DNA of 64,000 nt, from positions 1-64,000 of the forward strand of contig NZ_LGCM01000039.1 in the NCBI RefSeq assembly GCF_001306035.1, given 5' to 3'. The notes under the pieces were generated by a model, which ran no database searches, was not told the DNA's origin, and saw only the letters and a program-made list of their open reading frames with translations. Shown here piece after piece: positions 52,720 through 62,086 of this stretch; within the stretch, counting starts at the first letter, position 1; each line of letters begins with the position of its first letter. The position numbers and the translations under genes were made by a program. Source of the DNA: Levilinea saccharolytica (GTDB lineage Bacteria; Chloroflexota; Anaerolineae; Anaerolineales; Anaerolineaceae).

Positions 52720-54930
52720 TTACGTGCGCCGCAGCATCCAAATCGCCATGCCGAACCCGCACAAGGTGAAAAGCAATCCAAGCGGCACATCCCACGGCTG
52801 ATAGCGAAAAGAATAGTGGTGTTTACCCGCCGGTGCTGTCACAGAAAGCCATTGGTTGTCCAGCAATGGCTGCGGCTGGCCGTCACGCCAGGCTTTCCAG
52901 CCCGACCATTGGTTTTCATATACCAAGAGTTTCCCAGCGGCCGCATTTTGACAGACGACATCAATCCAGCCGCCCGCAGCTTCGGCAGCACACGGAATCG
53001 ATCCATCCTCAGTCTGCACAGCCGCGTATTCGATGGCTGGGTCATAGAACGTGCGCAGATGCGCAAAAGAAGCGATAGGGGCCGCATCGCTGGAATAATT
53101 GGGGTCGTTGGTGATCGTATAGAGCGCTGGCGGAAACGAACGGTCTTTCCAAAACCAGGGTCGCCACACCTGCCCAAGCTTAAAACCTTTTTCTAACAGA
53201 ACCGGAATCCACTGGAACTCTCCATCCGGAGGGGTTACCCATGCGGCAGAGTCTACGGATAGGCTCTCGATTAAACTGGGCGGCAGTTGGAGATTCCAGT
53301 TGTTCAGCCATTGGCGGCCAAATTCATACGGCGGCTTCAACGAATATAGAAGAACGAGCAGCAGAACCAGCCCAAACACAGGTATACCGTAATACGTCCC
53401 ATTGGATCGAGGGAACAGCACAGCGGGGGTTTTGACCTTTTTTAAAATACGGTCAATGCTCCAGGCCGCCAGGCCCAGCAGATAAGGCACAGCCAGGCCA
53501 GTCACTGGACTCAGGTGGCGCAAATTTTTAAAACCAGGCAGAATCGGGTAGATTAAATGTGCAAATTCGGAACTGCAAATGACAAAAAGCAGCAGGATGC
53601 TGACCCAAAAATAAACCATCACTGGGCGGCCTTTTTTGGGGACAAACCGCAGAGAAGCCAGAGCGAACAGCACCGGAATCCAACCAATGAAAATGGCATG
53701 GGTATATACCAAGCCATCTTTTCCCAAAATGGACATGTGGTAATAATCACCATCCGATAAGACCAGGTTCAGCGGAATATGCGCCAGCGGCACATAATTA
53801 CTGAAAGTATCATCTCCATCTTTAACATAATTTGGCGAAAAATGGATCAGCGGGGCCCAAAAAACCCCCAGCAGCAGAAAAGCCAACAGAAAGGCCAGCG
53901 CCAGATCTCGCCAAGCCATTTTTAGCTTCCAATTCTTGTCCCACAAAAGCAGCACCGCTGGGGGTAGAATGCCAATCACTGTGCCAATCTGGATGTACCC
54001 TTCGCCAGAAAGCCCCGTCAGTGCCAGAGCAAAGCCCAACCAGACGGCCGAACGGCGGTTGCCATTCCACAGCAGATTGACCAATGCGGGCAAGATGAGG
54101 CTGGCCGAGGCGGTCGATAGAAGGCCAAGCAGCATACCGTTTTCCATTTTTGCCGCCAGATGGCCGCCTGCCACGGCTAATAAGGCACTCCAAATGCGCG
54201 GCAGCCAGCCAAGTTTTAATGCGCGCGCCAACCCCCATTGACCAAGCCCAGCAATCATAAGACTAACCAGGGCGATCACTTTTGATCCATTAAAGACTCC
54301 CCAAATCAGCGTGGTTAAAATCACCAGCGGATGCAGGGGAGCGCCGCTGGTTTCTACAAAGGCGGGGGCGCCCCCGTTAACCTGCCCATTCCATAACACG
54401 CAGCTTCCGCAAATCGGCAGCAAGCGCCAGATCAGGTGTGATTGGGTTAAATGGGGTAATTCATTACCGCCTGGCAGGGTGTTCGGCGAAAAATCAAGAT
54501 AGCTGCGGCCGATAAACAGCGCCCAGATGATGATTAAAATAATTTCAAGAATCACATTCCAGTAAATTCCCAGTATCGTTTTGAAATAATCTCGTGTTCT
54601 TGAGATCAATGTCATCATCCATGACAGCTTTTTTGGCGGCTCGGCAAGGTCACCACCTTCAAATTCAACAGAATGAGGTACCATGGAGGAATTCCTTTGC
54701 AGGATTGCCAATCGGATCCGCTGAAAATGAGAAATGGCAAAATTCTTCCATCCGCTGAACCAGGTCAGAAACGGGGAGGGTGTGCCGCCGAATTCAATGA
54801 TTGTGTTCGTCTCTTGCTGAGTTGTTTTGTATTGATACCATCGCTGTGTCAACTTTCTGACAATTACCCAATCCAAGGGTATTGCGATGCTAAGGCCAAT
54901 GATCCAAAGAAGGATAGCAGGAAGGTCCAT
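52720..54930 (-). CDS. YfhO-like polytopic membrane protein
   Basis: A 736-residue protein with about thirteen transmembrane helices, a large C-terminal extramembrane domain and a last helix. The end, VYENQWSGWKAWRDGQPQPL followed by VTAPAGKHHYSFRYQPWDVP, is the hallmark of YfhO-type proteins, which in Firmicutes help glycosylate lipoteichoic acid. The soluble N-terminal insertion (about residues 30-100) is unusual for the family. No good ribosome site precedes the ATG at 54930, and the base composition of the gene is a little lower in GC than its neighbours. Confidence 0.78.
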   Translation of the reverse strand: MDLPAILLWIIGLSIAIPLDWVIVRKLTQRWYQYKTTQQETNTIIEFGGTPSPFLTWFSGWKNFAISHFQRIRLAILQRNSSMVPHSVEFEGGDLAEPPKKLSWMMTLISRTRDYFKTILGIYWNVILEIILIIIWALFIGRSYLDFSPNTLPGGNELPHLTQSHLIWRLLPICGSCVLWNGQVNGGAPAFVETSGAPLHPLVILTTLIWGVFNGSKVIALVSLMIAGLGQWGLARALKLGWLPRIWSALLAVAGGHLAAKMENGMLLGLLSTASASLILPALVNLLWNGNRRSAVWLGFALALTGLSGEGYIQIGTVIGILPPAVLLLWDKNWKLKMAWRDLALAFLLAFLLLGVFWAPLIHFSPNYVKDGDDTFSNYVPLAHIPLNLVLSDGDYYHMSILGKDGLVYTHAIFIGWIPVLFALASLRFVPKKGRPVMVYFWVSILLLFVICSSEFAHLIYPILPGFKNLRHLSPVTGLAVPYLLGLAAWSIDRILKKVKTPAVLFPRSNGTYYGIPVFGLVLLLVLLYSLKPPYEFGRQWLNNWNLQLPPSLIESLSVDSAAWVTPPDGEFQWIPVLLEKGFKLGQVWRPWFWKDRSFPPALYTITNDPNYSSDAAPIASFAHLRTFYDPAIEYAAVQTEDGSIPCAAEAAGGWIDVVCQNAAAGKLLVYENQWSGWKAWRDGQPQPLLDNQWLSVTAPAGKHHYSFRYQPWDVPLGLLFTLCGFGMAIWMLRRT

Positions 54931-55423: not shown

Positions 55424-55476
55424 CCTCACTGAAATTATCATTTTGCTGCGTTTGACCCGCACAGGAGCCAATGGGC

Positions 55477-59598
<4,122 letters not shown>

Positions 59599-59628
59599 TC
59601 CGTCCAGTCTGAAAAAGGAGGTGTTTTG

Positions 59629-60093
59629 ATGACCAACAAACCCATCCAAGATTTTCCATCCCTCGCTGAGGTGGAAAATGAGGTTGAAAAACAGAGCGCA
59701 GCGCAGGAGAAGGCTCAGGCGCGCTCCCGGCGGCCCTGGACGCGCTACCCCACCATCGCCCTGTTGATTCTGGCGTTGGGGCTGACCGTCCTTCAGCTCC
59801 TCCCCCGCGGCGCTGCGGCCCCCGCAAACGGCACAGGCGGCGTAGCCGGGCAGGTGGTCAACCAGAGCCTGACCCCCATTCCGGCCGAGGTGTACATCCT
59901 CCAGACCGAAAACGTCACCACTGCCGACTCGTCCGGAGCGTTTACCTTAAGCAGCGTGCCCGAAGGCCCGCAGGAGCTGATGGTCAGTTACGGCGGCGTG
60001 GGGTATTCCACCCGGGTGACCATTGAACGCGGGAAGACCTTCAATGTTGGCCAGATCCGCGTGCAGGAAACCATGCTGCCGCCCGAGCAGTGA
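59629..60093 (+). CDS. Membrane-anchored carboxypeptidase-regulatory-like protein
   Basis: A 154-residue protein with a charged cytoplasmic head (about 1-38), one transmembrane helix (about 42-60, IALLILALGLTVLQLL) and an external beta-sandwich (about 70-150) of the carboxypeptidase-regulatory/Fn3-like type: GGVAGQVVNQSLTPIPAEVY, DSSGAFTLSSVPEGPQEL. Such domains serve as structural or adhesion modules. AAAGGAGG lies seven bases before the ATG at 59629. It sits 30 bases after the kinase and 14 before the pilin gene, so it is probably part of the same operon. Confidence 0.82.
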   Translation: MTNKPIQDFPSLAEVENEVEKQSAAQEKAQARSRRPWTRYPTIALLILALGLTVLQLLPRGAAAPANGTGGVAGQVVNQSLTPIPAEVYILQTENVTTADSSGAFTLSSVPEGPQELMVSYGGVGYSTRVTIERGKTFNVGQIRVQETMLPPEQ

Positions 60094-60107
60094 GAAAAGG
60101 GAGAGCC

Positions 60108-60815
60108 ATGATGAAAAACCATTCACTGCGCAGCGAAAAAGGACAGGGCCTGATCGAATATGCCTTGATGATCGCCCTGGTTGTGTTGGTTGTGGTGCTG
60201 GCCCTCTCCCTCACCGGCACCAGCCTGGCGGATGTGTACTGCAATATCGTGCGCCAGATCGCCCCCGACACCGCGCCGGGCTGTTCCGCCTATGTGGAAG
60301 ACGAATTTATCACCATGGGCGATTGGATCACCGTCTACGGCAAGGCCGACTGGTCCATCAACGACGGTGAAATCGAAATGCGGGGCGGCGATCAGCGCAT
60401 CATCAACACCGCCGAGCTGCCCGACGATTACCGCGTCACCGTTAACCCGGCCGTTCTGGAAGGCGGACCCGGCTACGGCATCCTCTTCCGGCAAACGCCC
60501 AACGGCACCAGTTATTCCGGCTATTCCTTTCAGGTGGACAAGGGCCTGGGTAATAAGTTTGCCTTCCGCCGCTATGACAAAAACGGTGTGGAGCTGGGCG
60601 CGCCCCTGGCCGTGGTCAACACGCCCGGCAAGTTCGACTGGCAAGGGCCCCACAAAGTGGAGGTCGAGGTTCGAGGTTCCACCTTTAAAGCCTACATTGA
60701 CGGCACCCTGGTGCTCACCGCCACCGACAGCACTTACCCCACCGGCAAGGCCGGCCTACGCACCTGGCACGGCACCAAAGCCACCTTCGGCAGTTTCACC
60801 GTTTCCCCTCCCTAA
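60108..60815 (+). CDS. Type IVb (Flp-like) pilin fused to a lectin-like domain
   Basis: A 235-residue protein. Its N-terminus is a class III prepilin signal: a short basic leader, then G12-QGLIEY with Glu17 at +5 and Tyr18 at +6 of the predicted mature pilin, and a hydrophobic helix ALMIALVVLVVVLAL. Typical Flp pilins end after 50-60 residues; here about 180 more follow, forming a concanavalin/LamG-like beta-sandwich (DUF1080 type): ADWSINDGEIEMRGGDQRI, GYGILFRQ, FAFRRYDKNG, VRGSTFKAYIDGTLVL. It should be processed by a TadV/CpaA-type peptidase encoded elsewhere. A tip adhesin role is inferred. The ATG at 60111 is an equally possible start. Confidence 0.85.
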   Translation: MMKNHSLRSEKGQGLIEYALMIALVVLVVVLALSLTGTSLADVYCNIVRQIAPDTAPGCSAYVEDEFITMGDWITVYGKADWSINDGEIEMRGGDQRIINTAELPDDYRVTVNPAVLEGGPGYGILFRQTPNGTSYSGYSFQVDKGLGNKFAFRRYDKNGVELGAPLAVVNTPGKFDWQGPHKVEVEVRGSTFKAYIDGTLVLTATDSTYPTGKAGLRTWHGTKATFGSFTVSPP

Positions 60816-60874: not shown

Positions 60875-62086
60875 ATGGAATCTGCGCATATTTTAGCAGT
60901 CGAAGACAGCGAAATCACCCTCTTTAAGTTAAAAGCCATCCTGGTGCGGTTGGGCTACACCGTCACCACCTACGCCAATCCGGTGCTGGCCCTGGAATGG
61001 CTCAACACCTCCGGCGTGAAGCCCGATCTGGTGATGACCGACGTGATGATGCCGGAGATGGACGGCTTTACCTTTGTGCGCAGCATCCGCGCCATGCCCA
61101 GCCTGGCCGCCGTGCCCATCATCATGCTCACCTCTGTTTCCGACGTGGAAGCCCGCGTGAACGGCCTCAAAGCTGGCGCCGATGATTATCTCAACAAATC
61201 CGTCACCCCCACCGAGCTGGAACTGCGCGTCAAGGCCCTGCTCTCGCGCAGCCAGGCGGATGAGACCACCTTCGTTCAATCGGTGGGGCGCACCATCAGC
61301 GTCTTCAGCCAGCGCGGCGGGGTGGGCACCACCTCGGTGGCCATCAACCTGTCCATTGCCATCGCGCAGCTGTGGGGCATTGATGTCTGTCTTTGGGATC
61401 TGGCGCTCAAGGGCGGGCACTGTGCCACCATGATGAACCTCAAGCCCAAGAATTCCCTGGCCGAGTTGGGCGAGCTGGGCGGCGAGAATATCGAAGCCAG
61501 CCTGCTGGAAAAATTCCTGGTCAAACATGAGGCCGGGGTGTACCTGATGCCCGCCCCGCCCTCCGTGTCTGAATCGGAGCTGGTGACCTCCAAAGTGGTG
61601 GATCAGGTCATGCCCTTTCTGCAAGTGCGCTCCCCCTACCTCATCGTGGACGCAGGCAACCACCTCAACGAGCCGGTGATGAACGTGCTGGAGCGCTCCG
61701 ACGCCATTTTGCTCACCCTGGCCCCGGATATCGCCTCGGTGAAATCCTGCAGCGACGCGCTGGATGTGTTTGAGCAGTTGGGCTACGACCTGCGCAAAGT
61801 CTATCTGGTGATCAATAATATCTTCCCCATGCGCCTGCTGCCGGTGAAGCAAATAGTCTCGGTGCTGAAAAACCGCCCCTATCACGAAATCCCCTACGAC
61901 AGCAGCGGCTTTGTGCGCGCCATCAACACCGGTGAACCGCTGGTGGCCACCGCGCCCAAATCGGAGGCCGGGCTGGCCCTCATCTCATTGGCCTACCGCC
62001 TGAGCTACAAGAGCATGGAAACCAGCAAAAAGGCCGAAAAAGCCTCCCCCCTGCTGGATTTGTTCCACAAGCTGCGACCGCAGTAA
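60875..62086 (+). CDS. Receiver domain fused to CpaE/TadZ-like ATPase
   Basis: A 403-residue protein. The N-terminal receiver (1-125) has phospho-acceptor Asp56 in MTDVMMPEMDG and Lys108 in DYLNKS. The C-terminal half is a MinD/CpaE-type P-loop ATPase with deviant Walker A SQRGGVGTTSVA (about 145-156; Arg replaces the usual first Lys), Walker A' region LWDLALKGGHCA and VDAGNHLNEP. CpaE/TadZ proteins localise Tad (Flp) pilus machinery to the pole. Unlike many TadZ proteins, the receiver is not degenerate. Its place after the pilin-lectin gene and the HPt-bearing kinase suggests phosphorylation-controlled pilus positioning. Confidence 0.9.
   Translation: MESAHILAVEDSEITLFKLKAILVRLGYTVTTYANPVLALEWLNTSGVKPDLVMTDVMMPEMDGFTFVRSIRAMPSLAAVPIIMLTSVSDVEARVNGLKAGADDYLNKSVTPTELELRVKALLSRSQADETTFVQSVGRTISVFSQRGGVGTTSVAINLSIAIAQLWGIDVCLWDLALKGGHCATMMNLKPKNSLAELGELGGENIEASLLEKFLVKHEAGVYLMPAPPSVSESELVTSKVVDQVMPFLQVRSPYLIVDAGNHLNEPVMNVLERSDAILLTLAPDIASVKSCSDALDVFEQLGYDLRKVYLVINNIFPMRLLPVKQIVSVLKNRPYHEIPYDSSGFVRAINTGEPLVATAPKSEAGLALISLAYRLSYKSMETSKKAEKASPLLDLFHKLRPQ

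Follow-up and report, generated by a model that had tools for sequence, protein, structure and literature searches.

A Flp-type pilin helix fused to a CBM66-like domain within a partly conserved signalling cassette of Chloroflexota

The window analysed here, a stretch of 64,000 nucleotides from the genome of Levilinea saccharolytica, contains a single open frame of 235 codons (positions 60108-60815, forward strand) in which a Flp-type prepilin N-terminus is followed, in the same chain, by a CBM66-like beta-sandwich. This two-part architecture is conserved among Chloroflexota, where the fusion gene sits in a partly conserved cassette, in the window together with a hybrid histidine kinase, an Ig-like membrane protein and a member of a separate TadZ lineage. 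That the gene is often accompanied, in related genomes, by signalling and pilus-positioning genes of its own suggests a regulated sticky part of the pilus, and the reading that we favour, with some reserve, is that of a modular Flp-type pilin serving the Tad pilus as a minor subunit or as an adhesin at its tip, under the control of its own cassette.

A prepilin N-terminus and a CBM66-like domain in one chain

A ribosome-binding-site-like sequence (AGGGAGAG, positions 60098-60105 of the forward strand) precedes the start codon, and the protein opens with MMKNHSLRSEKGQGLIEYALM followed by a hydrophobic stretch. The first 12 residues (60108-60143) form a predicted prepilin leader peptide ending in G12, with the expected cleavage at G^QGLIEY, as judged from the conservation of the motif. 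GQGLIEY occupies residues 12-18, which puts the glutamate E17 at position +5 and the tyrosine Y18 at +6, and the stretch downstream reaches a 19-residue mean hydropathy of up to 2.9. Residues 13-51 (60144-60260) correspond to the Flp-type pilin helix, as indicated by profile, Flp_Fap match and structure model, the last of these with helices at residues 10-36 and 40-51 and strands after them. A chance motif was ruled out by the counts: in the 4.23 Mb genome, the DNA pattern for G-Q-G-(xTx codon)-x-E-Y has three occurrences, each opening a Flp-like frame (besides the fusion, two short ones with 56 and 71 residues), against none for its reversed control, and a similar protein motif is present once across the six frames of the window. 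An artefact of frame or annotation was also discarded, because distant genomes, too, encode the fusion as a single open frame.

The Pfam matches of the N-terminal part, Flp_Fap (20.1 bits, under the gathering score of 32.2 bits) and Class_IIIsignal (21.3 bits), fall below their cut-offs; the short Flps of the same genome miss the Flp_Fap gathering score as well (28.5 and 24.1 bits), so this cut-off does not discriminate here. A profile built from 22 aligned homologues (alignment A1) matches the solved Tad/Flp pilins 8u1k (E = 3e-5) and 8u2b (E = 2.6e-4), which marks the hydrophobic helix as homologous to theirs, and Q13, G14, E17 and Y18 are among the invariant columns of the alignment, with G12 nearly invariant. 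The prepilin signature and hydrophobic helix pointed out in the first-pass annotation are thus borne out by motif, hydropathy and profile. Canonical Flp pilins have about 50-80 amino acids. Because of its 235 residues, and because the Tad core lies on a different contig, we file the protein as a modular Flp-type pilin and not as a canonical Flp; NCBIfam holds no family for it.

The C-terminal part, residues 69-235 (60312-60812, forward strand), is a CBM66-like beta-sandwich. In Pfam, the family 3keto-disac_hyd (PF06439, which we take to be the former DUF1080) covers residues 72-227 at E = 3.8e-9, above the cut-off, and Laminin_G_3 gives a weak match (E = 0.0047). The nearest solved sequences are those of the CBM66 of the Bacillus subtilis levanase SacC, with E = 3.5e-8 in a single-sequence search and a similarity that extends over the whole module. 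This match climbs to E = 1.9e-20 with profile A1, so that one and the same profile recognises both halves of the protein, CBM66 at one end and Tad/Flp pilins at the other. Residues R128, G138, Y139, F141 and D207 are also among the invariant columns.

A structure model of modest confidence (mean pLDDT 57), computed from the window protein and a 92% identical relative, has a concanavalin-like beta-sandwich fold in this region. Its top Foldseek match is 4b1m (E = 1.9e-7), and CBM66 chains take ranks 1-3, 5 and 6; rank 4 is a galectin, as are most of the lower ranks. VIA-align gave a Z of 12.8 to CBM66 4b1l (rmsd 3.5 over 147 residues) and of up to 13.7 to galectins, CBM66 lying within 1 of these and being therefore tied or just under. 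Profile, Foldseek and VIA-align results together argue for a concanavalin-like domain whose closest family is CBM66. The domain had been described at first as LamG/DUF1080-like, of which the concanavalin-like sandwich and the PF06439 assignment stand, while the closest family turns out to be CBM66 and not a generic LamG; no unrelated fold came out of the structure prediction. The joining of a prepilin and a lectin-like domain in one chain, the central claim of that annotation, is supported by the sequence, by the modest model and by conservation across the phylum. As for ligands, CBM66 members differ among themselves: SacC binds fructan ends and the CBM66 of a Cohnella enzyme binds XLT-xanthan and not fructans (PMC11002231). 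Since members of the family bind different sugars, we assign no ligand to the fusion domain.

Spread and conservation of the fusion

We gathered 67 fusion frames from 51 Chloroflexota genomes, in sets of 22 and 45 frames; the total includes one frame truncated by the start of its contig as well as several tandem copies, the protein encoded identically at L007 and G068:C20 is counted once, and one more carrier (G283) was left out of the 51-genome locus set. Within the family, 73 of 147 genomes match the window sequence at E 1e-5, mostly through the pilin part alone, and a reading of the matches listed places the fusion in 17 of the 147, with 22 copies. At E 1e-20, profile A1 finds matches in 23 of 396 genomes of the class and in 19 of 400 of the phylum, with five genomes common to both lists. 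Single-contig genomes of 5,258,541 and 4,684,931 bases are among the carriers, and a plasmid collection yielded zero relatives of the fusion at E 1e-5.

The prepilin motif, defined as [G/A]xxxxE ahead of a hydrophobic run (the glutamate is thus demanded by the pattern), is found in 65 of the 67 frames, those missed being L109 and the cut frame L141. The residue at -1 is glycine in 60 of the 65 motifs and alanine in the other 5, and tyrosine occupies +6 in 46 and is absent from 19. Between the window fusion and its close relative at L007, dN is 0.051 and dS 0.519, which gives a dN/dS of about 0.10 (0.21 for the first 50 codons, 0.08 for the domain). The spread of the fusion, the retention of the motif and this ratio together indicate a maintained gene and no chance join.

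Several variants deserve mention. Five copies, including those at L124, L126 and L129, carry alanine for glycine before the expected cut (AQAxxEY or AQGAIEY), a change that may alter or prevent processing. In the copies of one phylum-level genus (L103-L105, L114-L117) the motif reads GQSx(T/V)E(I/L), with the glutamate at +5 kept and the tyrosine at +6 lost. Loci L106 and L107 each contain three fusion genes in tandem with one gene for the Ig-like partner described below. Prepilin-like proteins with a GQG(L/V)xE(L/V)AL motif, a Pro/Thr-rich linker and another head are encoded at L086:2297-3220 and L088:2314-3312, in fusion-bearing genomes. In genome G108 (L169:7351-8312), a relative of the Ig-like partner precedes a 180-residue Flp-like protein (AQGLVEF) whose C-terminal part, a head unrelated to that of the fusion, lacks any Pfam match, an arrangement that could represent a head swap. 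A protein of 302 residues in genome G004 (L168:7644-8552) has a Flp-type N-terminus, then a long stalk rich in Thr and Pro and finally a small end part, with no partner or TadZ match within the stretch of locus examined.

The cassette, its TadZ and the Tad machine of the genome

Four genes follow one another on the forward strand of the window, separated by gaps of 27, 14 and 59 bases: a hybrid histidine kinase (55471-59598), an Ig-like membrane protein (59626-60093), the fusion and a receiver-MinD protein (60875-62086). The same order is seen at L007. By Pfam, the kinase comprises a membrane/Cache-like sensor (Cache at 19.4 bits, below cut-off), two PAS domains, HisKA, HATPase_c, two receivers and an Hpt domain. 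The Ig-like partner has a short N-terminus, one hydrophobic stretch and a carboxypeptidase-regulatory-like domain (PF13715, E = 6e-10; PF13620, E = 2.1e-9), which would give it an N-in, domain-out topology; no solved relative was found by sequence at E 0.01. The motif SPS(L/F) occurs near the start in 21 of 51 partner rows and is absent from the partner of the window. Upstream of the cassette, a large hydrophobic protein of 736 amino acids is encoded on the reverse strand (52720-54930).

Conservation of this neighbourhood is partial. For 54 of the 67 fusions, a relative of the Ig-like partner is encoded no more than 800 bases away (tandem fusions share one partner in this count), and for 53 it is on the same strand; 14 fusions are without a same-strand partner at this distance, some of them at contig ends. 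A receiver-MinD relative is found within 1.5 kb of 26 fusions, one of these being a 101-residue fragment and another lying on the opposite strand and shared with a neighbouring fusion, and the remaining 41 are without a TadZ at that range, again with some at contig ends. Kinase matches within 3 kb accompany 20 of the 67, a figure that includes three cases of the MinD protein's own receiver, two short receiver-Hpt proteins and two matches on the opposite strand.

The product of 60875-62086 combines a receiver (Response_reg, E = 9.5e-25) with a MinD-like ATPase (AAA_31, E = 1.9e-6), as TadZ/CpaE proteins do; it differs from them in belonging to a separate lineage and in not lying beside TadA/B/C. 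When 24 receiver-MinD proteins from cassettes were compared with 20 TadZs from Tad operons, a single branch split the two groups with support 100/100, and the split was recovered in 100% of 200 bootstrap trees. The tree has no outgroup, and the tree program flags a meeting of long branches between the two groups, so what we claim is their separation and not a rooted order. Judged from this alignment and tree, the cassette TadZ is a paralogous lineage apart from the TadZ of Tad operons. Among 25 aligned rows (24 from cassettes and one from an operon), the receiver lysine is kept in all 25 and the acidic-pocket aspartate in 24, and the phospho-acceptor aspartate is in the printed stretch of every row except one with a gap; because these residues are kept, the receiver can probably be phosphorylated. 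A phosphorelay from the kinase, which ends in an Hpt domain, to the TadZ receiver would be plausible on these grounds. For another member of the Chloroflexota, Litorilinea aerophila, a 2026 paper reports two tadZ copies in the Tad operon (PMC13319060); being inside the operon, this pair may be something other than the cassette TadZ.

The Tad core of the genome (CpaB-TadZ-TadA-TadB-TadC) lies on contig C18, away from the fusion. The 56-residue Flp is near the end of contig C17, which adjoins the CpaB end of C18 when the two contigs are aligned with locus L154 of a relative, and the genome has one match to an A24 prepilin peptidase. No TadA, TadB, TadC or CpaB was found in the fusion loci, taken as up to about 10 kb on each side and less at contig ends, with a CpaB query that is weak in distant genomes. 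As these loci yielded no Tad core gene, it is the TadZ paralogue, the Flp-type helix and co-occurrence that tie the fusion to the Tad machine. In the family, TadB is present in 16 of 17 carriers vs 75 of 130 non-carriers (Fisher p = 0.003, uncorrected for kinship), at a threshold of E 1e-8 or better that five of the 75 pass only at E 1e-8 to 1e-13; non-carriers are here the genomes in which the single window sequence has no full-length match, so that more distant fusions may be missed. The one family carrier without a TadB match (G130) perhaps reflects an assembly gap. Outside the family, all 35 carriers and all 12 non-carriers tried have TadB, which makes the comparison uninformative there. 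In 20 of 20 Tad loci taken from other carriers TadA, TadB and TadC occur together, and 8 of these loci have a short Flp-like frame upstream.

A proposed role and its alternatives

In the favoured reading, the fusion would act as follows. The prepilin peptidase would cut the fusion protein after G12, and the Flp-type helix would let it join the Tad pilus, probably in few copies and at the tip or close to it, so that the CBM66-like domain would be displayed outside as a sugar-binding adhesin. The hybrid histidine kinase, through its own Hpt, would probably hand phosphate to the receiver of the second TadZ, which would set when or where the Tad machine takes up the fusion pilin, and the Ig-like protein would serve this pilin as a partner or tether in the membrane. 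In anaerobic digesters, one study ties the prevalence of Anaerolineae to strongly transcribed Flp/Tad-type pili for cell aggregation (PMC4877987), and a sugar-binding-type head offers a direct and testable candidate for what these pili stick to. Word-based searches of the open-access literature, one of them directed at Flp pilins of Chloroflexi, brought up no article in which such a pilin carries a carbohydrate-binding module.

Known systems offer partial parallels. PilC, from the type 4 pili of Streptococcus sanguinis, is a minor pilin of 52.8 kDa with lectin and Ig-like modules; it has a class III leader, a pilin moiety and a C-terminal concanavalin-like lectin module, and is modelled at the pilus tip (PMC9934059). 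The same succession of prepilin leader, helix and C-terminal lectin module in one chain is found in the fusion, as far as sequence and predicted fold can tell. PilC as described there differs in having an Ig-like module and in being encoded in the pil locus, whereas the fusion joins a short Flp-type helix to CBM66 and belongs to a separate signalling cassette. Lectin-bearing modular pilins are thus already known, and by analogy the fusion would be the Flp-type version of a known kind. With the Tad/Flp pilins 8u1k and 8u2b, and with the 56-residue Flp of the genome, the fusion has in common a Flp-type leader and a single helix, but it is 235 residues long, carries an extra domain and lies outside the Tad operon. 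The Kil tip complexes of Myxococcus resemble it in that their minor pilins can replace one another, in some cases bear an additional C-terminal domain, and come from separate gene clusters; they differ in forming KilLMN trimers and in the extra domain of KilN4, which has no known structural relative, and the available part of the paper describes no TadZ or kinase cassette (PMC12075869). The CBM66 of SacC (4azz, 4b1l, 4b1m) is like the fusion domain in sequence and fold, SacC itself being an enzyme.

The main rival, which we regard as unlikely, takes the protein for a membrane-anchored sugar-binding one: the Flp-like N-terminus would be an anchor only, and the protein, never entering a pilus, would act with the Ig-like partner as an outward co-sensor for the cassette kinase. 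The absence of Tad core genes around the fusions, their linkage to a kinase and to an anchored partner, and the motifs with alanine at -1 or without tyrosine at +6 all agree with it; however, a plain anchor would have no need of the prevailing glycine at -1 or of a glutamate at +5 that is invariant in the 22 homologues, and it leaves aside that the cassette often keeps its own TadZ and that nearly all family carriers have TadB. A distinctly improbable alternative makes the fusion the main subunit of a second, thick and lectin-coated pilus, built by the same machine with the second TadZ. The separate TadZ lineage and the three tandem copies of two genomes (L106, L107) speak for this, but the normal operon has a short Flp and a head of 170 residues on each subunit would presumably be unusual for this type of pilus. 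Least credible of all is an enzyme, a 3-keto-disaccharide hydrolase carried on a pilin, since a catalytic role taken from the Pfam name of PF06439 looks weak when both sequence comparison and Foldseek place the binding module CBM66 first among the solved relatives and when, levanase apart, just one chain hit by the profile bears the name of a hydrolase, with a much poorer match (4jqt, E = 0.00025).

Under the favoured reading, the distinct lineage of the cassette TadZ suggests a single Tad machine that may, depending on signals, work with more than one set of pilins. A bolder version, tentative and on the whole doubtful, would be that of a plug-in cassette that re-equips the Tad pilus of Chloroflexota: a phosphorelay would switch a dedicated TadZ, which would make the one Tad machine take on a Flp pilin that binds sugar; the Ig-like protein would act as docking tether, and the heads would be exchangeable, as the arrangement in G108 may illustrate. 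Elsewhere in the genome, contigs C9 and C30 (L142-L147) show six TadE-like matches, four of them above cut-off and all away from both the Tad core and the fusion; these proteins are other candidates for tip pilins.
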